From positions 1 to 64,000 of the forward strand of contig JAEUPW010000066.1 of NCBI GenBank assembly GCA_016790045.1: a DNA stretch of 64,000 nt, written 5' to 3'. Below the pieces are notes generated by a model. That model saw only the letters and a list, made by a program, of their open reading frames with translations, searched no databases and was not told where the DNA came from. How positions within the stretch are numbered: position 1 is the stretch's first letter; every line of letters begins with the position of its first letter. Shown here piece after piece: positions 5,433 to 23,361 of this stretch. The translations under genes and the position numbers were made by a program. The DNA is from Candidatus Competibacteraceae bacterium (GTDB taxonomy: Bacteria > Pseudomonadota > Gammaproteobacteria > Competibacterales > Competibacteraceae).

Positions 5433-5939
5433 ATGCGACGCTTTTTGCTGGCTTTTATCGGAATTGGGCTATTGCTGTACGGGATCGTTTATTTGCCGCC
5501 GGTGCGGGCGCAGATCATCGAGCCTTTCACCGAAAGCCTGACGGCGGTGGCCGGCGGGTTGATCGCGCTGTTGGGCGGGCAGGTCTGGGTTCACGGCAAC
5601 GTGTTGAGCGTTCCCGGCTTTAGCGTCCGCATTCTCGATTTGTGCAACGGGGTGGAAGCGACCTTGCTGCTGTGGACCGCCATGCTGGCTTTTCCCGCCC
5701 CGTGGCGGCACCGTTTGGTTGGCCTGCTGGTCGGCTGGTCGGCGGTGCAAGCGCTCAACATGGCGCGGATCATCAGTCTGGTTTATCTGGGTGTCTGGAA
5801 ACCGGCGTGGTTCTACTGGGTGCACTGGTACGTTTGGGATGCCTTGATCCTGATGGATGTCTTGCTGGTTTTCCTGCTGTGGCTGCGCCGGCTGCCGCTG
5901 GGCGCCGCGCGGCCTCTTCCGCATGCGCGCGCGGGTTGA
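5433..5939 (+). CDS. xrtH: Exosortase, XrtH-type
   Basis: The protein is a short (168 residues) multi-pass membrane transpeptidase of the exosortase/archaeosortase superfamily, which cuts a C-terminal sorting signal and anchors surface proteins. The expected catalytic residues are visible: Cys in LDLCNGVEA, Arg in LNMARIIS and His in YWVHWYVWD. The size and the membrane-protein partner encoded next to it fit exosortase H, which acts on proteins with IPTLxxWG-type C-termini. No such substrate is encoded in this window. The start follows CGGAG. It overlaps the next gene by 17 bases, so the two are translationally linked. Confidence 0.85.
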   Translation: MRRFLLAFIGIGLLLYGIVYLPPVRAQIIEPFTESLTAVAGGLIALLGGQVWVHGNVLSVPGFSVRILDLCNGVEATLLLWTAMLAFPAPWRHRLVGLLVGWSAVQALNMARIISLVYLGVWKPAWFYWVHWYVWDALILMDVLLVFLLWLRRLPLGAARPLPHARAG

Positions 5940-6609
5940 CCCGCTGCTGCTGCGCTTGCTGGTGGGCGGGAGTCTTTGCCTGCCGTTGTGTCTGGTGCTG
6001 TGGTGGCAGTGGCTGCGGGAACCGCTGGCGAAAATTCTGGCGCACGGCGCCGGTTTCGCCAGCCAATGGCTGTGGTCGGAAACCGTGTTGGGCGTCGGCT
6101 TTGGCGGCGATAAGGGTATGGTCGTCAGCCTGGTGCCGCCGCTGACCGACTCGGCTCAACTGTTTATGGCCCTGCCGCTGCCGCTGGACCGCGCGACCGT
6201 GATCTTGCCGCTGTTTTGGGCGCTGACGCTGCCGACGCCGGGTCGGGCGCTGCTGCGACGCCTGCTGTGCGGCACGCTCGTTTTGCTGCCGGTGATCGGG
6301 TTGACGGTCGCCCTGTACGTGCAATTTCAACTGGCCTTGTATCGGACACACCTGCCGCTGATGACCGAAATTCCGCCCGCGGAATACGCGCTCGCATTGC
6401 CGGATGCGCCGGTTCCTTATTACCTGGCGGGTTTGGGCCGGCAACTGGCGGTGCTGGTCTTGCCGATTGTCGCGCCGCTGCTCGCCTGGCTGCTGCTGCA
6501 TCAAGCCTACCTGCGCAAAATGATCCTGGGCGGTTGGCTGCAACGAGCGCTGAAATCCGCGCCCCCAACGGGTTCGCCGCCCTCGCCCTCCGCGGACGCT
6601 GACGGATGA
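5923..6609 (+). CDS. Exosortase-H-associated membrane protein
   Basis: This 228-residue protein has about four hydrophobic helices (for example PLLLRLLVGGSLCLPLCLVL and LLPVIGLTVALYVQFQLALY). It matches what I recall of the membrane protein regularly found beside exosortase H, and its position supports this. Its role is not known; an accessory or substrate-presenting function at the inner membrane is an inference. The start at 5923 lies within the end of xrtH, and its stop shares ATGA with the next gene. The C-terminal tail is Pro/Ser-rich and probably cytoplasmic. Confidence 0.72.
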   Translation: MRARVDPLLLRLLVGGSLCLPLCLVLWWQWLREPLAKILAHGAGFASQWLWSETVLGVGFGGDKGMVVSLVPPLTDSAQLFMALPLPLDRATVILPLFWALTLPTPGRALLRRLLCGTLVLLPVIGLTVALYVQFQLALYRTHLPLMTEIPPAEYALALPDAPVPYYLAGLGRQLAVLVLPIVAPLLAWLLLHQAYLRKMILGGWLQRALKSAPPTGSPPSPSADADG

Positions 6610-7247: not shown

Positions 7248-8489
7248 CTAGGACGCGCGGCATTGCACCACCTTGAACTCGACCCGACGGTCCAGCGCAT
7301 CCCTGGCATCGTCGGTTCCCGTCCCGATCAGCGTCTCTTTCGATCCGACCCCGTTGGCGATGGTGCGGGCGCGCAACGCTGGCGCGCCGGCCTCCAACCG
7401 GGTCTTGACTCGCTCGGCCCGCAAGGTGGACAGGCGCTCGTTGATCGGTTCGGGACCGGTGCGGCTGGTGTGTCCGACGATTTCCAAACAACCCTGGTGC
7501 GCCGAGGTCCGTTGCGCGATCTGCTTCAGCCACAGCGGATACGGGCCGCTCACCTGCCGGTCCGGCCAAAACTCGGTCGAGCCGGGCTTGAACAGGAATT
7601 TGACGGCGAGGCGCTGGTTGGCGAGCCCGTGATCCACGATTTTGCCGAACGCTTCAAGCGCCTCGTTGCGGCGGCCCAGTTTCCAACTGGTCAGATACAG
7701 GCCGTTGTAGACCCGCAATTGTTCGCCGCCCGGCGAGCGGAGCGCGCTTTGGTATAAATCCAGCGCGGCCGGGTATTGCCGGTTGTTGTAAGCGTCTATC
7801 GCTTCGCTGATCAAGGCCGCCGTCAGGATGCGATCCGCGTAGGCCGCGCTAATCGGATCGCCGGCTTTGGTGCCCTGGCAGGTTTTGATATAGCCTTCGG
7901 TCGCTTTATCCGGAACCCAGGCGGGACTGTCCTGGAAATGAGGGGTCGGGGTGATGTCGACGCCTTCGGGCCTGGCCCGCGCGGTGCCCTTGGCAATGAT
8001 CTTGCCGGACTTGAGATCGGCCAGCGCCAGGCAGACCCGATAGGCTTCGCGCGCGCCTTCGGTCTTGCCTTCCGGGTTGACGCCGGTGAAGGTGCCGACC
8101 AGCACGATGGGCGATTGGGCCACCGCCGCCGCCGAAAACGGTTGCACCGCGAATTGGGGATATTTTTCTTGCACCAACTCGACGAGGCGGGCCTCCATCG
8201 ACCGGGTCGCGACCGACTGCGCGCCCGATACGCCGTCAATCAGGGGATCGATCACCAAGGTATAGCGCGCCGGAGCCCGACCGCTCCCTTCAGGGAGCTG
8301 GGCGCGGCCGAATAAATCGTTGGCGGCTTTCAAGACCGCTTCGTCGAAAGGCACCGGCTGGACCGGCGGCGCGGGCGCGGCGGTCTGCTTCGTGTCGGCG
8401 GGCGGGGCGGCGCATCCCCACAGCAGCGCCGCGACCAGCAAACTCGCGCCTGCCAGCACGGCCCGCGCGGGGCGTTCGATCATCGTCAT
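7248..8489 (-). CDS. OmpA-domain lipoprotein
   Basis: The protein (413 residues) has a lipoprotein signal (lipobox LLWGCAAPP), a central domain that is probably periplasmic, a short TPR-like stretch (IDAYNNRQYPAALDLYQSAL) and a C-terminal OmpA-like domain that would bind peptidoglycan. The OmpA signature appears as EIVGHTSRTGPEPINERLS with RAERVKTRLEAGAP, ending in DRRVEFKVV. The start at 8489 follows AAGGAG by eight bases. Its ATG overlaps the stop of the upstream Ser/Thr kinase gene (ATGA), so the two are very likely an operon, and the kinase may control or sense this outer-membrane/peptidoglycan-linked protein. Confidence 0.82.
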   Translation of the reverse strand: MTMIERPARAVLAGASLLVAALLWGCAAPPADTKQTAAPAPPVQPVPFDEAVLKAANDLFGRAQLPEGSGRAPARYTLVIDPLIDGVSGAQSVATRSMEARLVELVQEKYPQFAVQPFSAAAVAQSPIVLVGTFTGVNPEGKTEGAREAYRVCLALADLKSGKIIAKGTARARPEGVDITPTPHFQDSPAWVPDKATEGYIKTCQGTKAGDPISAAYADRILTAALISEAIDAYNNRQYPAALDLYQSALRSPGGEQLRVYNGLYLTSWKLGRRNEALEAFGKIVDHGLANQRLAVKFLFKPGSTEFWPDRQVSGPYPLWLKQIAQRTSAHQGCLEIVGHTSRTGPEPINERLSTLRAERVKTRLEAGAPALRARTIANGVGSKETLIGTGTDDARDALDRRVEFKVVQCRAS

Positions 8490-10789
8490 GGTCTGCACTC
8501 CTTCTGTTCGGTGGCGGATAGCGGTTCGCCGAGTTGCGCCTTGAGCAGGGCTTCCCCGCAGTTGATCCTCGTTTTCGCCTGACGCGGCGGAGCGGGCGGC
8601 GACTTGGCCGGCTTGACCGGCGTCGGCGCGTCCGATCCCGCAACGGCGGCCGGCGCTTTCATGCGCGCCTCGCGCGTTTCCGATGGCGCTTTGCGGCCGC
8701 TATCTTGGGCGGGCCGGTTTTTTTCTTGTTCGGCGGCCCGGCGCCTGGCCTCCTCGGCCGCCTGACGCCTGGCTTCGCCCTCGATCAGACGGCGAACTTC
8801 GCTCTCCGCCTGTTTGCGCTTGGCTTGCAACAGGCGATACAACGTCGCCAAACGGGAATGCTCGGGCCCGATCCGCTGCAATTGCGCCAGATAGCCTTCG
8901 GCGCTCTGAAATTCTGCCTTGCCGATGGCCGCGTCGGCCAAACTCGCGTAGCGGTCCGCGATCTGCGCGATCCTGGCCTGCGCCTGAGGATCGGCGGGCG
9001 CCGACGCCGCGATGCGCCGGTAACAGGCCGCAGCTTCCACGCCTTGCGGGCCCGTCAACCGTTCGAGCGGAAAGCGGTCGGCGCAGTCCTTTAGCATCGC
9101 GCCGATGCGCCGTTGGGTTTCCAGGGCCGCCGTCACTCGCTCGCGCAACTTCGTCAGTTCAGCTTGCTCTGGAACCAAGCTTAGCCCTTCGTCGATCCGT
9201 TGCAAGCTCTCGTCCAACCGGTTTTGCCCGACCAGCTCTCGCGCTTCGGCCAGCAGTTTCGGGAGCAGTTGCCGTTCCTTGAGCCGATGGTCCACCACCG
9301 AGCGCAAGGTGGACAATTCGGGATGGCCGGGGGACTCTCGCAAGCCCTGCTCGATCCGCTGCAAGCTCCCTTCGAGATCGCCCGCCTGCCAGCGGGCGTG
9401 GGCTTGCGACAATATCCGCTCGGCTTGCTGCTGCCGTTCTTTGGACTGCGCCTGCAGGGTCGCGCGCAGCGCCGTCAACCCCGCGTGATCGGGGACGAGT
9501 TGCAGGCCCTCCTCCGCCTGCCGCAACCCCTGTTCGGCCAAACCGTCGCGCGCGCTTTGCCGGGCCTGCTCCAACCGCCGGCCCGCCGCTTGCTGGCGCT
9601 CGACCCGCTCGCGCAAGGCCAGCAGCCCCGGATCGTCCGGCGCGGCGTTGAGGCCGAGCTCGATCAAGTCCAGGCCAGGCCCGAATTGCTCGTTTTGCAG
9701 GTGTTGGGCGGCGAGTTGCCGATAATGGGCCGCGAGGTTGGGCCGATCCGGCGCCGGCGACCCCATCGCGGTTTCCGTCTCGGCCGGCGCCGGTTGCCGT
9801 ATCGCCTTCAACGACAGGCCGCCCAACGCGATGACCAGCAAGGTCAGGCCGCCGGCCAGCGCCACTTTTCTCGGGAGCGGCGAGCGGTTGAAGGCATGGA
9901 ACAACCGGGCCGTGGGCAAAAAAGGGTGGAATGACGACCTGGATAGCGGCCGCTCCAGCGCCTGAATCAGTTGTTCCGCATTCTCGAAGCGGTCGCCCGG
10001 ATTTTTGGCCAGCAGCTTCTGCAAAACCGTTTGGTAGTGGCTGACATGATCGGGCAGGCGCGGAACGGGTTGGGTGCAATGCATCATGGCGACGCCGATC
10101 AGGTCATCCGCGCGATAGGGCGGCTGCCGGACCAGCATTTCGTACAAAACGATGCCGAGACTGTAAAGATCGCTGCGGTTGTCCAGCGCTTTGCCGGTGA
10201 TCTGTTCCGGGCTCATGTAGGCCGGACTGCCGATCGCCAGACCGGGCGCGGTCAACTGGGTGTCGTCGCCGCCCAAGGTCTTGGCGATGCCGAAATCGCT
10301 GAGCACCGGCGTGCCGTCCTTGCGGAACAGGATATTTTGCGGCTTGATGTCGCGGTGGATGATGCCCCGATGATGGGCGTAGGCCAGCGCCCCGGAAATC
10401 GACTTGGCGATCTCCAGCGCCCGCTCCGGGCTCAAACCGTCCGCGATCTGTTGGGCCAGCGTCCCTTCGGAGAGAAACTCCATGGAAAAGTAGGAATGGC
10501 CTTCGTGCGACCCGAAATCGTAGATCGTGATGATCTGCGGGTGCTGGAGCTGGGCGATGATCCGCCCCTCTTTCAAGAACCGATCAGTAAAATGCTCGTC
10601 GTTGATCCGGGTCGAGCGCATCACTTTGAGGGCGACTTGACGGCCGAGCGATTCCTGCACGGCGAGATAAACCGTCGCCATGCCGCCCTCGCCGATCTGG
10701 CGCAGAATCGTGTAGCCCGGAATGTCCTTCACCAGCGGATACTCCCGCGCATCCGGCCGCCCGTTGCCCGATCGCGCGCGCTTTGCCAT
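8486..10789 (-). CDS. Membrane Ser/Thr protein kinase (PknB-like) with helical repeat C-terminus
   Basis: The N-terminal kinase domain has all key motifs: glycine loop IGEGGMATVYLA, lysine in VALKVM, catalytic loop HRDIKPQNILF, DFG in LSDFGIAKTLGG and the SPAYMSPEQI segment. A single membrane helix follows (KVALAGGLTLLVIALGGLSL). The remaining ~420 residues, which should face the periplasm, hold several related helical repeats (GLNAAPDDPGLLALRERVE; GLQLVPDHAGLTALRATLQ; GLRESPGHPELSTLRSVVD; GLSLVPEQAELTKLRERVT) and a Lys/Ala-rich linker. This looks like a sensor kinase with an external repeat domain. The ATG at 10789 was chosen; a GTG six codons upstream is possible. It is coupled to the OmpA lipoprotein gene. 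Confidence 0.88.
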   Translation of the reverse strand: MAKRARSGNGRPDAREYPLVKDIPGYTILRQIGEGGMATVYLAVQESLGRQVALKVMRSTRINDEHFTDRFLKEGRIIAQLQHPQIITIYDFGSHEGHSYFSMEFLSEGTLAQQIADGLSPERALEIAKSISGALAYAHHRGIIHRDIKPQNILFRKDGTPVLSDFGIAKTLGGDDTQLTAPGLAIGSPAYMSPEQITGKALDNRSDLYSLGIVLYEMLVRQPPYRADDLIGVAMMHCTQPVPRLPDHVSHYQTVLQKLLAKNPGDRFENAEQLIQALERPLSRSSFHPFLPTARLFHAFNRSPLPRKVALAGGLTLLVIALGGLSLKAIRQPAPAETETAMGSPAPDRPNLAAHYRQLAAQHLQNEQFGPGLDLIELGLNAAPDDPGLLALRERVERQQAAGRRLEQARQSARDGLAEQGLRQAEEGLQLVPDHAGLTALRATLQAQSKERQQQAERILSQAHARWQAGDLEGSLQRIEQGLRESPGHPELSTLRSVVDHRLKERQLLPKLLAEARELVGQNRLDESLQRIDEGLSLVPEQAELTKLRERVTAALETQRRIGAMLKDCADRFPLERLTGPQGVEAAACYRRIAASAPADPQAQARIAQIADRYASLADAAIGKAEFQSAEGYLAQLQRIGPEHSRLATLYRLLQAKRKQAESEVRRLIEGEARRQAAEEARRRAAEQEKNRPAQDSGRKAPSETREARMKAPAAVAGSDAPTPVKPAKSPPAPPRQAKTRINCGEALLKAQLGEPLSATEQKECRP

Positions 10790-12786: not shown

Positions 12787-14244
12787 TCAAGCCGGCCACC
12801 ACGCCCGAGGCGTGAACAGCGCGCCCAAAGCGCGCGCGGCGTAGTACAGATCTCGCCCGGCGCTGCGCTGGCGGGCGTAGAACGCATCGCTCATCAAGCG
12901 CTCCTCGCGCGGGGCGGCCGCCGGCAACAGCAACTGGGTCGGGCCGATCAAACCGGCCGGGGCGCGGTCGCCCAGGCGCTCCCATTCCTCGGAACGCTCC
13001 GCCGCCTGTTCCGGCGTCAAAGGCTCGGTCCCGATCAAGCGCAAATCGCCGCTCGCCACCGCCAGCAGGCGCGGCAGATAGCGCAGTATCGGAACCGGGG
13101 TCGCCCATTCCCAGGCGGGGAAACGCCGCCGCTGGCGCATCCCGAAATCGTCGAAATCCAGGCGGTTGCCCCGCAGCCAGACCGCTTGCAGCGGTTGACG
13201 GGGATTGTCGGCCAAGCCCGCCAGCAACGCCAGCGGCCACAGCGGCAGCGACAGCCCGAGCAGCAGCACGCCCAGCAGCCGGTTGAGCGGTTCGGCCAAC
13301 GCCCCGGCCAAAGTCGTCTCGCCCAAATCGGCCAGCAGGAAGGTCTCCGCCACCGACAGCACCGCGCCGATATCGACCCGGATCAACCGGTTTCCCTGGA
13401 CGATGGCGTTGCGCACCTCCACCAATTCACCGATATAGGTGTCCGGCAGCACCACGCTATCCCGCAGGGTGGCGAGCCGATCCACGATCACGTGCTCGCC
13501 GATCACCACTTCGCCGTGCAATTCGGCGCTCGAATCGATCCGGCAACCGCCGCCGATCCAGGCGACGCCTTGGCGGAGACTGCGGGGCGAGACGCTCGAA
13601 CGCAAGCCCACAGTCAAACCCAGCGCCACCTGTCGGCCCGGCGCGAGCAATTCGGGAAGGCGTCCGGCGGCGGCGTCCAAATTGGCCTGATGATACGCCC
13701 GCAACGACTCTAAAGGGCGCACGCTCCCTTCGATCTCCACCGCCGGCCAGACCGGCGCGGCGGAATCCGGCCGCGCGCTCCAGCGCAGCCGTTCGAGCCC
13801 GCCGCGACCGCCGGCCCGATGCAGGCAATAACCGATCATCCCCGCAGCGGTTTTGCCGTAAACGACCGGGCCGGTCACCCCGGAAGCCGCTTGCAAGAAC
13901 GCGCTCAAATTCGCGCCGTGCAGCACATCGCCCCGCAACGCCAGCAGCTCGCCGGTCAAGTGCGGTTGCGCCAGGGCCAGAATGTCGTCGGGTTCGGCCT
14001 CGCCGCGCGTCAGCACGTAATGCAAGCGCATGCCCCAGCGGCTGCCGTCCCCGAACGCCGCCCGCAGCTCCTCGGCTTGCGGCGAAATGGCGATCAGCGC
14101 CTGCCGCAAGCCGGCGGCGGCCAGCCGTTCCAGCGCGTGTTCCAACACCGCCTTGCCGACCACCGGCAGCAACGCCACGCACGAGCGCTCGACGAGCGGC
14201 TGCAATTCCCGGCCCAGCCGGTCCGCGAAAATCAGAGCGCGCAC
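12787..14244 (-). CDS. Nucleotidyltransferase / left-handed beta-helix / sugar-transferase-like fusion
   Basis: The protein (485 residues) has three parts. Residues 1 to ~225 resemble a sugar nucleotidyltransferase (start VRALIFADRLGRELQPLVER; the usual GGxGTRL loop is degenerate). Residues ~230-310 are hexapeptide-like (IGGGCRIDSSAELHGEVVIG). The last ~170 residues resemble the bacterial sugar-transferase (phosphoglycosyltransferase) domain, with VWLRGNRLDFDDFGMRQRRR and LLAVASGDLRLIGTEPLTPE, but the catalytic Asp-Glu pair before LPxxxNVL is absent. It is probably a pseudo-enzyme or regulator for polysaccharide assembly. The GTG start lies three bases after the stop of the intact sugar transferase gene, so the genes are likely one operon. 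Confidence 0.7.
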   Translation of the reverse strand: MRALIFADRLGRELQPLVERSCVALLPVVGKAVLEHALERLAAAGLRQALIAISPQAEELRAAFGDGSRWGMRLHYVLTRGEAEPDDILALAQPHLTGELLALRGDVLHGANLSAFLQAASGVTGPVVYGKTAAGMIGYCLHRAGGRGGLERLRWSARPDSAAPVWPAVEIEGSVRPLESLRAYHQANLDAAAGRLPELLAPGRQVALGLTVGLRSSVSPRSLRQGVAWIGGGCRIDSSAELHGEVVIGEHVIVDRLATLRDSVVLPDTYIGELVEVRNAIVQGNRLIRVDIGAVLSVAETFLLADLGETTLAGALAEPLNRLLGVLLLGLSLPLWPLALLAGLADNPRQPLQAVWLRGNRLDFDDFGMRQRRRFPAWEWATPVPILRYLPRLLAVASGDLRLIGTEPLTPEQAAERSEEWERLGDRAPAGLIGPTQLLLPAAAPREERLMSDAFYARQRSAGRDLYYAARALGALFTPRAWWPA

Positions 14245-14247
14245 GAT

Positions 14248-14997
14248 TCAGTAGGCCCCCCGCCCCAACAGCACCGCCGGCACGGTTTTCATCAAAATCA
14301 GGATATCCTGCCACAGCGAGGAGGATTCGATGTAGCGCACATCGAGCTTGACCTGCTCCGGAAACGGGATGTCGGAGCGCCCCGAAACCTGCCAGATGCA
14401 GGTGATGCCCGGAAACACTTCCAGACGCCGCCGGTCGGCCAGCGAATATTTGTCCACCTCGCTCGGCAAGGCCGGGCGCGGCCCCACCAGCGACATGTCG
14501 CCGACCAGCACGTTCCAGAACTGCGGCAATTCGTCGATGGAGGCGCGGCGGATGAACCGCCCGACCCGGGTGACGCGCGGGTCGTGTTTCATTTTGAAAA
14601 TCACGCCGCCGGCGGACTCGTTGCGGGCCAGCAGTTCCGCCTTGCGCGCTTCGGCGTCGACGTACATCGAGCGGAATTTCCACATCGGAAACAGCTTGCC
14701 CCAGCGACCGACCCGGATTTGCTTGAAAAACACCGGCCCCGGCGATTCCAGCTTGATCAGCGCCGCGACCGTCAAAAACAGCGGCGCGAGCACCAGCAGC
14801 AGCTCCGCCGACACCACGATATCCAGCAGGCGCTTGAAAACGTAAGTGCTGCCGATCACCGCCTTCCAGGTCAGCCGCTTGAGCTGAAAGCGCGACTGCT
14901 GCCAGAAGCCGTCGGGCCGGATCTGACCGTAACGGTGCAGCAGCGCTTCCCGCAACTGGGGATCGGGTTCGAACCAGCGGTCGGATTGTTCGCTCAT
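14248..14997 (-). CDS. Undecaprenyl-phosphate sugar phosphotransferase (bacterial sugar transferase)
   Basis: This 249-residue monotopic-type phosphoglycosyltransferase should load the first sugar phosphate onto undecaprenyl phosphate to begin a repeat unit of a surface polysaccharide. The membrane segment LLDIVVSAELLLVLAPLFLT is followed by GPVFFKQIRVGRWGKLFPMW, then RRASIDELPQFWNVLVGDMS with the catalytic Asp-Glu pair, GPRPALPSEV and PGITCIWQVSGRSD. The sugar is not predictable. The start at 14997 follows AAGGAGA and overlaps the upstream gene by ATGA. It is the only one of three adjacent related proteins that keeps the catalytic pair. Confidence 0.9.
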   Translation of the reverse strand: MSEQSDRWFEPDPQLREALLHRYGQIRPDGFWQQSRFQLKRLTWKAVIGSTYVFKRLLDIVVSAELLLVLAPLFLTVAALIKLESPGPVFFKQIRVGRWGKLFPMWKFRSMYVDAEARKAELLARNESAGGVIFKMKHDPRVTRVGRFIRRASIDELPQFWNVLVGDMSLVGPRPALPSEVDKYSLADRRRLEVFPGITCIWQVSGRSDIPFPEQVKLDVRYIESSSLWQDILILMKTVPAVLLGRGAY

Positions 14998-16271
14998 GCT
15001 TTCTCCTTGCGAGCCTGAAGCCAAACGCGATACAAAAATAACGGATTGCCGATCAAATAGCGCCGCCACATCCGGCCCGGCTCCTGCGCGAGCCGCCACA
15101 CCCATTCCAGGCCGATCTCGCGCAGCCACAGCGGCGCGCGGGGAATCCGGCCCGAATAAAAATCGAACAGCCCGCCCACGCCCATCCGCACCGGCGGTTG
15201 CAAGCGTTTCCGGTGTTGGGCCAGCCAAAGTTCCTGCCGGGGCACGCCGAAAGCGACCAGCAGGATGCGCGCGCCCGAGCCGTTGATGCGCCCGATGATG
15301 GCCGCTTCCTCGGCCGCGTCGAAATAACCGTGCTGGACGCCGGCGACGATCAAGCCCGGATGGCGCCGCCGCATGTTTTCGGCGACCTGTTCGGCCACGC
15401 CCGGCCGCGCGCCGAGCAGGAACAGCGCCAAGCCCTCGCGGGCGGCGCGCTCGCATAGCCGCGGAAACAGGTCGGTGCCGTTGACGTTGGCGGCCAAGCC
15501 CACCCCGAGCATCCGGCAGCCGATCTTCAAGCCGATCCCGTCCGGCAACACCCGCGCCGCGCCCTGGAGCACGGCCCGATAGGCGTCGTGGGTGTAGGCG
15601 ATGTTGAGGCAATCGGGGTTGACGAAGGCCAGCAGCGAGCTGTTGGCTTCGCCTTGCCCGCCGGTCGCCCGTTCCGCCGAAGCGGGCGAGGCGCGGGCGA
15701 CGATCCAGTCCAGCGCTTCATCCATGGTGGTGTTGACGATGGGCACCCCGAAAAAATCGAGCCTGGGGGGCGCGGGCCGCTCGCTTCCGCCCAACAGCCC
15801 GGCGAGCAGGGAACGCGCGATCAACCCCACGCTTCCGCGCAGGCTCATCCGCTCGACAAACGCTCGATCGACCTGAGTTTCGGAATCGTGGGCGATGCCG
15901 GTTTGACGCTGTAGCTGATAAGGCGAAAACACCCCCGGCCGCACCGAAAAACGCCGCTCGGCTTCGAGGGGCAGCGATTCGGCTTGGGCGGCGGTCAGCG
16001 GTCGCGGCCCGGCGAAGGCCAAGTCGCCGCGCAGGACATTGAAAAGCACCGCCAGACCGCGGCCCGCCGCCGGCCCCGCGAAAGCCAGCCGGCAGAAAGG
16101 CTGACGGTCGCGGCCCAGCAACGGCTCGCGCTCGAACAGCCGACCCGTTTGCCACCCGGCCGCCAGCAGGCGCGCCAACCAGAACGGCGCCAGCGCGGCC
16201 GCCAACAGCGAGGCCAGCGTCAAATCGAAGAGCCTGATGGTTCCCGCCACCGACGACGGTTGATCCCGCAC
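14994..16271 (-). CDS. Degenerate sugar transferase fused to WecG/TagA/CpsF glycosyltransferase
   Basis: The N-terminal ~170 residues align by eye with a bacterial sugar transferase (FDLTLASLLAAALAPFWLAR; LAVLFNVLRGDLAFAGPRPL; RPGVFSPYQLQRQTG), but the DELPQ segment is replaced by GLAVL, so the catalytic Asp-Glu is lost. The C-terminal ~250 residues are a WecG/TagA/CpsF glycosyltransferase (PIVNTTMDEALDWIV, NPDCLNIAYTHD, ARVLPDGIGLKIGCRMLG, VAFGVPRQELWL), which adds the second sugar to the lipid-linked unit. The preferred start is GTG at 16271, eight bases after AGGAG; an in-frame ATG at 16331 is an alternative. It is ATGA-coupled to the active sugar transferase. Confidence 0.8.
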   Translation of the reverse strand: MRDQPSSVAGTIRLFDLTLASLLAAALAPFWLARLLAAGWQTGRLFEREPLLGRDRQPFCRLAFAGPAAGRGLAVLFNVLRGDLAFAGPRPLTAAQAESLPLEAERRFSVRPGVFSPYQLQRQTGIAHDSETQVDRAFVERMSLRGSVGLIARSLLAGLLGGSERPAPPRLDFFGVPIVNTTMDEALDWIVARASPASAERATGGQGEANSSLLAFVNPDCLNIAYTHDAYRAVLQGAARVLPDGIGLKIGCRMLGVGLAANVNGTDLFPRLCERAAREGLALFLLGARPGVAEQVAENMRRRHPGLIVAGVQHGYFDAAEEAAIIGRINGSGARILLVAFGVPRQELWLAQHRKRLQPPVRMGVGGLFDFYSGRIPRAPLWLREIGLEWVWRLAQEPGRMWRRYLIGNPLFLYRVWLQARKEKA

Positions 16272-16362
16272 CTGATGTTCTCCTGTTCGCCGCATCCGAC
16301 GCGCGGGTGTAAGCGGCGGTTGTTCCCGCATCCCATTTTATCCTATCCGCCGCTTTTGGCTC

Positions 16363-21269: not shown

Positions 21270-21605
21270 CTAGCGCAACCGCGCCAGCGCCGTGGCCTCT
21301 TCATCGAAAATCGAGAAAATTTGTTGCAGGCGAGTCAGCTCGATCAGCGAGCGCACGGTCGGGTTCGGCCGCAGCAACACCACTTCGCCGTTTTTGAGGC
21401 GGGCGGCCTTGAACACCGACACCAGCACCGAAAGCCCGCTGGAATCCATGAAGCCCACCTCGGCCAGATCCAGCGCCAGCTTGCCGCCGCCTTTTTCGAC
21501 CACATCCAGCAAACGCTGGCGAACCTGCGCCACGTCCGCCATCATCAACCGCCCCGATAGAGCGATCACGTCAATCCCCTCAACCGTCCGATGCGTTACG
21601 ACCAT
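21270..21605 (-). CDS. STAS-domain anti-sigma-factor antagonist
   Basis: This 111-residue SpoIIAA/RsbV-like protein has the characteristic phosphorylation site block VGFMDSSGLSVLVSVFKAAR, where the first or second Ser is the target of the partner kinase. In partner switching, the unphosphorylated form binds the anti-sigma kinase and frees its client. The gene sits between the RsbW-like kinase gene and the receiver-tail protein gene and is very likely regulated by them. Confidence 0.88.
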   Translation of the reverse strand: MVVTHRTVEGIDVIALSGRLMMADVAQVRQRLLDVVEKGGGKLALDLAEVGFMDSSGLSVLVSVFKAARLKNGEVVLLRPNPTVRSLIELTRLQQIFSIFDEEATALARLR

Positions 21606-21692
21606 GATTGGATATCCCGAAGCAATAAACCTGTCCCCACAATCGGCTCCCCGACCGGTCCCGCGCCTGCGCGTATCGCCGGCGGTCTTTCC

Positions 21693-22145
21693 TCAGGCCG
21701 GCCGCGACCCCTTGAGCGTCCGGCGCATGGTCAGGGTGTTCTGCCCATCGCCGACATGATACTCGACCGAATCCATGCACGACTTGATGATGCTCAATCC
21801 GCGCCCGCGCAGCGGCCACGTCTCCGGATCGGCCCGATCCGGCTTGACGGCGGCGACCGGCGCGGTCAATTGCAAAGGGTCCATCGGATCGCCGCGATCG
21901 CGCACCGACACGCTGAACGCCTCCGGGCTCAGCCGGAATTCCACCAGCACCGCATGGCCGGGTTCACCGTGATAGGCGTGTTCGACCGCGTTGTTCACCG
22001 CCTCGACCACGGCCAGCTCGATTTGCGCGACATCGGCCGGCGGCAACGCCGTCAGACCGCAGAGTCCGTTGACCGCGCCGCCCAGCAATTCGATGCATTC
22101 AGGCCGGCTCTCGATCGCCAGGCTGATCGTCCGGGTCATAGCCAT
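21693..22145 (-). CDS. RsbW/SpoIIAB-like anti-sigma serine kinase
   Basis: The protein (150 residues) is a GHKL ATPase/kinase with the N box VVEAVNNAVEHAYHGEP, the G1-like VRDRGDPMDP and the G2-like LRGRGLSIIKSCMDSVEY. It should phosphorylate the STAS protein encoded next to it. It has no sigma factor neighbour, so its client may be another protein. The ATG at 22145 lies 47 bases inside the end of the upstream phosphatase gene, which links their translation. Confidence 0.86.
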   Translation of the reverse strand: MAMTRTISLAIESRPECIELLGGAVNGLCGLTALPPADVAQIELAVVEAVNNAVEHAYHGEPGHAVLVEFRLSPEAFSVSVRDRGDPMDPLQLTAPVAAVKPDRADPETWPLRGRGLSIIKSCMDSVEYHVGDGQNTLTMRRTLKGSRPA

Positions 22146-23361
22146 GCTCGCGTTCCAAGACTAGCAAGGTGATGTCGTCCTCGAGATTAGCGTCACCCTT
22201 CCATTCCAGTAACGCCTCGCCGACGCGCGCCGCCACCGCGGCGGCGACCAAATCGCGGGTCTCTTCCAACAACTGTCTCAACCGCGATTCAGCGAAGGGC
22301 TCTCCGGCGGGATTGGGGCACTCGGTGATGCCATCTGAGTATAAAAATAGACGATCTCCCGCCGCCAGTTCAAAGTCGGTAGTATCGTATTCGACATCGG
22401 GAAACATGCCGACCGGGAACCCCCCGCCGCCCACCAGTTCGGCGCGCCCGCTGGCGCGGCGCAGCAGGATCGGTTTGGGATGGCCGGCTTGGGCGAGGCG
22501 CACCCGCCCGGAACGCAAATCCAAGTTGCCGTAAATCATGGTGAAATACTGCAAGGGCTCGATGCCGGATTGAAAGCGCCGGTTCAGTTCGCCGACCAGC
22601 ACTTGCGGGATCGCCGTCTCGCTCGGGCCGACCTCCTGCCGGCGCAGGCGTCTTTCCTCGGCCCCTTGCGACAGCAGGCGGCTTAAGGTGAACGACAGCA
22701 GCGCGGCGGGCACGCCGTGACCCACCACATCCAACTGATAAAAACTCAACTGGTGCGCGTCGACCGTAAAGTAATCGAAAATATCGCCGGCCACGAACGA
22801 GCAGGGGTGGAACAGCCACTCCACCGTGACGCCCGGCAGCCGCAGCGGCGGCGGCAGGAGCGACTTTTGCAGGCCGGCGGCCGACTCCAAGTCGTTGCGG
22901 ATGGTCGAGTACGCTTCGGACAGAGTGTGATTGATCTGGTTGAGGCGGCGATTGCGCTCGTCCAGCTCCTCTTCCAGCCGCAAGATGCGCTCGCCGGCGC
23001 GAACCCGCACCCGCAGTTCCTCGGGGTGGACCGGCTTGACGATGAAATCGTCGGCCCCGGCGTCCATGCCCTGCACCAGCGAGTTGCGGTCGTTGCGGCC
23101 GCTCAACAGAATCAGATAGATATAATTATCGAACGGGGTGGCTCGCACCCGCCGGCACAGGTCGGGACCGTTCAAACCGGGCATCATCCAATCGCTGATC
23201 ACCAGTCGGATGTCGCCGTGTTGTACAATCTCCCAGGCTTCCAGGCCATCCCGCGCCACGCGGGTCTCATAGCGCCACTGCCGGAGCATGGCCGTGATGA
23301 TGCGCAGCATGGCCGGATCGTCGTCCACCACCAGAATATGGTTGCTTGAGCTGGGAGCCAT
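22099..23361 (-). CDS. Receiver-PP2C (RsbU/SpoIIE-type) phosphatase
   Basis: The N-terminal receiver (HILVVDDDPAMLRIITAML; Asp in LVISDWMMPGLNG; IVKPVHPEE) is joined by a coiled linker to a PP2C-like phosphatase. The phosphatase has LQKSLLPPPLRLPGV, FVAGDIFDYFTVDA (metal-binding Asp), VGHGVPAALLSF, LYSDGITECPNP and LEDDITLLVLE. Phosphorylation of the receiver should switch on dephosphorylation of the STAS protein. It heads the operon of phosphatase, kinase, STAS, receiver-tail protein and perhaps coiled-coil protein. The 420-residue length is normal for this fused form. Confidence 0.9.
   Translation of the reverse strand: MAPSSSNHILVVDDDPAMLRIITAMLRQWRYETRVARDGLEAWEIVQHGDIRLVISDWMMPGLNGPDLCRRVRATPFDNYIYLILLSGRNDRNSLVQGMDAGADDFIVKPVHPEELRVRVRAGERILRLEEELDERNRRLNQINHTLSEAYSTIRNDLESAAGLQKSLLPPPLRLPGVTVEWLFHPCSFVAGDIFDYFTVDAHQLSFYQLDVVGHGVPAALLSFTLSRLLSQGAEERRLRRQEVGPSETAIPQVLVGELNRRFQSGIEPLQYFTMIYGNLDLRSGRVRLAQAGHPKPILLRRASGRAELVGGGGFPVGMFPDVEYDTTDFELAAGDRLFLYSDGITECPNPAGEPFAESRLRQLLEETRDLVAAAVAARVGEALLEWKGDANLEDDITLLVLEREHGYDPDDQPGDREPA

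Follow-up and report, generated by a model that had tools for sequence, protein, structure and literature searches.

Small monotopic phosphoglycosyltransferases (PGTs), a group that includes PglC and is recognized by a full-length Bac_transf domain (PF02397) with a catalytic Asp-Glu dyad, possess a re-entrant helix; in PglC a mid-helix proline shapes this element and is required for activity, which its authors relate to polyprenol binding (PMC6133551). In the Bi-PGTs, a functional domain is fused to a catalytic monotopic PGT (PMC10942596), and in Myxococcus xanthus the initiating enzyme EpsZ, a large PGT, is acted upon by the non-catalytic response regulator EpsW (PMC12802240). The WecG/TagA/CpsF glycosyltransferases (glycosyltransferase family 26, GT26) are represented by TagA (7mpk, 5wb4), which is active only when membrane-associated and binds the membrane via its C-terminal appendage (PMC6493773). 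In this work, we describe a three-gene unit found in a 64,000-nucleotide stretch (hereafter the window; contig JAEUPW010000066.1, positions 1 to 64,000) from a Candidatus Competibacteraceae bacterium, in which a live PGT (P2) is encoded between two proteins (P1 and P3) bearing PGT-fold domains devoid of the catalytic dyad, one fused to a WecG-type glycosyltransferase and the other to a nucleotidyltransferase-like part that appears to be dead. The Competibacteraceae are a wastewater-associated bacterial family. No inactive or pseudo-PGT and no PGT-WecG fusion was described in the literature searched, which does not include the monotopic PGT survey in PNAS (2021); as judged from that literature, pseudo-monotopic PGTs are undescribed so far.

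P1, P2 and P3 are encoded by three translationally coupled genes on the minus strand, the first two overlapping by 4 nucleotides (ATGA) and the third beginning 3 nucleotides past the P2 stop codon. The P1 start was placed at a GTG at 16271, preceded by AGGAGAA; an in-frame ATG at 16331 was dropped in its favor, considering orthologue starts and the ribosome-binding site, and is retained only as the origin of the P1 residue numbering. The features of the unit are as follows:

14994 to 16271, minus strand: P1, pseudo-PGT followed by a WecG/TagA/CpsF glycosyltransferase, 425 residues from GTG 16271 (Pfam, orthologue starts, ribosome-binding site)
15786 to 16238, minus strand: pseudo-PGT domain of P1, residues 32-182, with a re-entrant-helix-like segment containing an LAP motif (hhalign to P2, PglC match)
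16056 to 16061, minus strand: R91-G92 of P1, in place of the catalytic Asp-Glu (alignment)
15009 to 15764, minus strand: WecG/TagA domain of P1, apparently intact, D264 corresponding to TagA D65 and R420 to TagA R221 (alignment to 7mpk)
14248 to 14997, minus strand: P2, intact small monotopic PGT, 249 residues (Pfam, TIGR03025, WbaP 8t53)
14530 to 14535, minus strand: catalytic Asp155-Glu156 of P2, within IDELPQ (sequence; invariant in 12 orthologues)
12787 to 14244, minus strand: P3, apparent pseudo-nucleotidyltransferase, left-handed beta-helix and pseudo-PGT, 485 residues
13645 to 14244, minus strand: nucleotidyltransferase-like domain of P3, signature Arg replaced by E13 and signature Lys by V23
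13345 to 13644, minus strand: left-handed beta-helix (hexapeptide) domain of P3 (Pfam Hexapep_GlmU, Foldseek)
12790 to 13344, minus strand: pseudo-PGT domain of P3, residues 301-485, with a re-entrant-helix-like segment and invariant P334 (hhalign, PglC 8e37)
13078 to 13083, minus strand: R388-Y389 of P3, in place of the catalytic Asp-Glu (alignment)

P2 gives a full-length match to Bac_transf (E 3e-68), also matches TIGR03025 (E 2e-90) and WbaP 8t53 (E 5e-48), and retains the Asp-Glu pair that an earlier note on this DNA had pointed out; on these sequence grounds, P2 is a member of the small monotopic PGTs.

The same note had reported that both neighboring proteins conserve the blocks surrounding this pair but lack the pair itself. 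Its absence was borne out, whereas the upstream block is not conserved, given that about 40 residues preceding the dyad (KFRSM...DPRxTxxGxxIRRxSI) are missing from both domains. Pfam matches Bac_transf in P1 (E 3e-13) and P3 (E 2.6e-6) only through the C-terminal half of the profile. Profile comparison with hhalign, however, related the entire P1 domain to P2 (98.5% coverage, E 3.5e-15) across the deletion, the P3 domain to P2 (88%, E 2.8e-6), and both domains to each other (97%, E 1e-10), with the WecG and nucleotidyltransferase parts used as controls remaining below 1% against P2. PglC was matched by the P1 domain at E 7e-16 and by the P3 domain (8e37) at E 1e-7. Both domains therefore share the fold of the small monotopic PGTs from the re-entrant helix to the C-terminus, as judged by profiles, and differ from them in the missing dyad and preceding residues. 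The hydrophobic segment at the start of each domain is interrupted by a conserved proline, within LAP in P1 and at P334 in P3, the latter invariant in alignment A6. The initial observation is confirmed, and is stronger than first stated.

That these domains could still be PGTs operating with another catalytic pair might be suggested by the P1 domain, which retains GPRP and an invariant Glu (E151) in its C-terminal part. However, residues 1 to 190 of P1 contain neither DE nor ED, the dyad Asp is replaced across families by R, Q, K, S or A in P1 and by R or A in P3, and some 40 leading residues are gone; this explanation is highly improbable. A search of the sequences and alignments for an equivalent pair elsewhere in the fused parts, a finding that the note had named as contrary to its proposal, returned none. 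In addition, the P1 and P3 domains have common features not found in P2, such as PLTxxQA following the GD block, and because they also share the same deletion, they probably descend from one ancestral inactivated PGT, with convergence as the alternative.

Both inactive copies had been described as fused to other activities of the pathway, which appears to hold for WecG but not for the nucleotidyltransferase. The C-terminal domain of P1 matches Pfam Glyco_tran_WecG (E 1.5e-64) and TagA (E 2e-65), and the equivalents of the TagA residues D65 and R221 (PMC6493773), namely the catalytic Asp D264 and the appendage Arg R420, are invariant in Competibacteraceae, as expected for a WecG/TagA/CpsF enzyme. 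Unlike TagA, which has no PGT domain and contacts the donor sugar through T37, P1 carries the pseudo-PGT and has F236 at this position, a substitution that may reflect the use of another sugar instead of a loss of activity.

In P3, the first 300 residues display the domain order and fold of nucleotidyltransferases with a beta-helix (tlr0611 8x7s, GMPPB) and of GMPPA, an inactive regulatory paralogue; P3 differs from them in its added C-terminal pseudo-PGT and in the loss of the signature residues. In enzymes with the RmlA/GlmU-type fold, the Arg of GxGTxR and the Lys of PKxLLP are catalytic. The P3 counterparts of GxGTxRP and PKxLLP read DRLGRELxP and CVALLP; the Arg is replaced by Glu in all 17 Competibacteraceae P3 proteins and the Lys by V, A, I or T, and both residues are also lost in loci L103, L125, L126, L144, L145 and L106-L108 (labels beginning with f, G and L denote families, genomes and loci in our samples). 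The nucleotidyltransferase part thus appears to be a pseudoenzyme, and because the signature Arg and Lys are lost, P3 would be a double pseudoenzyme bringing no visible activity to an assembly. The Asp of the LRGD loop (D106) is retained.

Selection was assessed for each domain by the median ratio of nonsynonymous to synonymous substitution rates (dN/dS). Values were 0.33 for the P1 pseudo-PGT, 0.16 for WecG and 0.12 for P2, and within P3 they were 0.26 for the nucleotidyltransferase part, 0.21 for the beta-helix and 0.24 for the pseudo-PGT. Every domain is under purifying selection, and the fused domains are maintained, not relics. The roughly twofold faster evolution of the P1 pseudo-PGT relative to WecG could be taken as a sign of functionless, decaying leftovers of duplicated PGT genes; nevertheless, dN/dS values well below 1, deep conservation, intact open frames, and the occurrence of the same deletion and fold in several families largely refute this possibility, to which we assign very little weight.

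The conservation of the unit was examined in 39 Competibacteraceae genomes, the source genome included; among the loci, L031 is that of Competibacteraceae bacterium UBA6584. P3 was found in 17/39 genomes, P2 in 12/39 and P1 in 11/39 (one P1 being cut by a contig end), and the distribution is strictly nested: P1 always occurs with P2 and P3, and P2 always with P3. The identical gene order and translational coupling were observed in at least 10 genomes of the family, with spacing unchanged in most relatives, often beside more glycosyltransferase genes; in several genera the trio closes a run of glycosyltransferase family 4 (GT4), family 2 (GT2) and acetyltransferase genes. Incomplete cases include G019, where the contig stops at P3; G025, with an IS66 transposase (L038:10848-12272) directly upstream of P2, at the expected place of P1; and G020, in which decayed fragments of P1, P2 and P3 adjoin (L128:8225-8858), the unit having decayed together.

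The survey for the same fusions that the earlier note had suggested was extended to 369 gammaproteobacterial genomes (class sample) and 398 genomes of the phylum (phylum sample), and showed that the unit recurs in other gammaproteobacterial families. In the class sample, the pseudoPGT-WecG fusion is present in 8/369 genomes (f1, f137, f34 and f144), while 9/369 genomes, from the same four families and f154, have a P3 of full or short form at the thresholds used, and 7 genomes have both; G293 possesses a short P3 in the operon that scored below threshold. P1 is accompanied by P3 in all four families and was never found without it, even in f34, where P3 lies on a separate contig. The nominal hypergeometric p for this co-occurrence, 2e-12 when genomes are counted and 1e-7 when families are, is optimistic due to operon linkage and shared descent. 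In the phylum sample, f195 has both P1 and P3, and in f208, belonging to another class, P2 is paired with P3 in the absence of P1. At L145:3877-6041, where this pair from another class was observed, the nucleotidyltransferase part of P3 likewise looks dead, and its C-terminus resembles a PGT but contains no Asp-Glu.

Natural one-chain arrangements of the first and second enzymes were also identified. In f34 and f195, P1 and P2 are joined as pseudoPGT-WecG-PGT (L104, L105 and L144), and three families, f163, f214 and f224, have WecG joined directly to a live PGT with no pseudo-PGT in the chain (L109, L146 and L147), bringing steps one and two of glycan assembly into a single polypeptide.

With the integration of these findings, the reading that we favor, at about even odds, is that the trio constitutes a module that primes the synthesis of an exported, undecaprenyl-linked polysaccharide. 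P2 would transfer the first sugar-phosphate to undecaprenyl phosphate, and the WecG domain of P1 would add the second sugar to the lipid-linked sugar. The pseudo-PGT domains have lost the catalytic segment but keep the fold and the membrane re-entrant-helix segment. Most likely, they hold WecG and P3 at the membrane and dock at the live PGT; the lipid-linked sugar would then be handed from P2 to WecG inside the complex, with P3 probably serving as a non-catalytic scaffold or a nucleotide-sugar-responsive partner of the priming site. Physical cooperation of P1 and P2 is likely, because the coupled operon places PGT-fold domains without the catalytic pair on either side of the live PGT, and because chains that join WecG to a PGT exist in other families.

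Several observations weigh against this proposal. P3 occurs without P1 and P2 in G007, G022, G027 and G034, where it may have a role of its own or be a remnant; P3 lacks the pseudo-PGT in f144 (L106-L108), where P1 of L107 and L108 has also lost its mid-helix Pro; and at L103 a 404-residue hydrophobic protein (7616-8830), with no Pfam or NCBIfam match, replaces P2 between P1 and P3. The AlphaFold models of P1 and P3, built from shallow alignments, are weak (mean predicted local distance difference test, pLDDT, 57 and 52), and the 50 best structure matches to the weak P3 model included no PGT. In a fold search the P1 model, also weak, matched TagA at E 5e-14 and PglC only at E 7e-3; since the models are too weak, the assignment of the PGT fold rests on the profiles. 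Membrane insertion, docking, hand-over, the role of P3 and the physical assembly are steps that we infer. The interpretation offered in the earlier note, a multi-enzyme assembly in which the inactive domains position the nucleotidyltransferase and the second glycosyltransferase beside the initiating enzyme, is accordingly partly supported: the cooperation of P1 with P2 stands as likely, while the positioning of an active nucleotidyltransferase does not, considering that this part appears dead, that some genomes have P3 only, and that no P2 lies between P1 and P3 at L103.

Alternatively, the pseudo-PGTs could be plain inner-membrane anchors for WecG and P3 without contact with P2, as might be expected from the well-kept hydrophobic, proline-containing segment at the domain N-terminus, from the requirement of TagA for membrane association (PMC6493773) and from the occurrence of P3 in genomes without P2. 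A single helix would suffice for such a function; the part that profiles recognize and that purifying selection maintains, however, is the second half of the fold, toward the C-terminus (GPRP, RPG and TGIA..E in P1). Moreover, the pseudo-PGT persists in the three one-chain loci L104, L105 and L144, although WecG is joined there to a live membrane PGT, which argues for contact with P2 or the lipid-linked substrate instead of mere tethering; we regard simple anchoring as unlikely.

A mainly regulatory role appears doubtful as well. Here, P3 would resemble the subunits of low catalytic power in nucleotidyltransferase complexes, binding a nucleotide sugar and gating P2, or a pseudo-PGT would modulate P2 oligomerization, in either case controlling the commitment of undecaprenyl phosphate. 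P3 keeps D106 but not the catalytic Arg and Lys, and its weak model, compared with Foldseek, suggests a resemblance to nucleotidyltransferase/beta-helix enzymes including GMPPA and GMPPB; a precedent is found in EpsW, which activates the initiating EpsZ through direct binding (PMC12802240). Conversely, P3 of f144 retains only the Asp of the RGD motif (EAD in L106 and L107), and P3 persists in genomes lacking P2.

Elsewhere in the window, exosortase H (TIGR04177) is encoded at 5433-5939, followed by an XrtH-associated membrane protein (NF041730) at 5857-6609. A row comprising an anti-sigma antagonist (STAS), an RsbW-like kinase and an RssB-like response regulator at 21270-23361 looks like a partner-switching cassette, parts of which also lie near the trio in some relatives.

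Compared with the described systems, the priming module proposed here resembles the Bi-PGTs in that a PGT-fold domain is fused to a pathway enzyme, in this case WecG, or to a part that resembles a nucleotidyltransferase. The PGT domain of Bi-PGTs is the catalytic one (PMC10942596), whereas that of P1 and P3 is dead, with live PGT activity supplied by a separate gene or by an additional second domain. As in EpsW-EpsZ, the initiating PGT would be acted upon by a partner that is not itself catalytic, although EpsW is unrelated to P1 and P3 and EpsZ is a large PGT (PMC12802240). More tentatively, the pseudo-monotopic PGTs may represent a new family of pseudoenzymes, in which one ancestral PGT, after losing its catalytic segment, was grafted onto WecG and onto a dead nucleotidyltransferase; with a live PGT they would make up a dedicated priming complex, where two pseudoenzymes would control both the hand-over of substrate and the commitment of undecaprenyl phosphate. 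This conserved unit of one live PGT and two inactive copies, carried by the next enzyme and by an apparently dead nucleotidyltransferase, provides a natural and testable case of a priming complex, and bears on the way in which undecaprenyl-linked sugars reach the transferase that follows the priming enzyme and on the rationing of undecaprenyl phosphate among pathways; because live and dead domains have one fold, domain swaps can test docking, hand-over and control.

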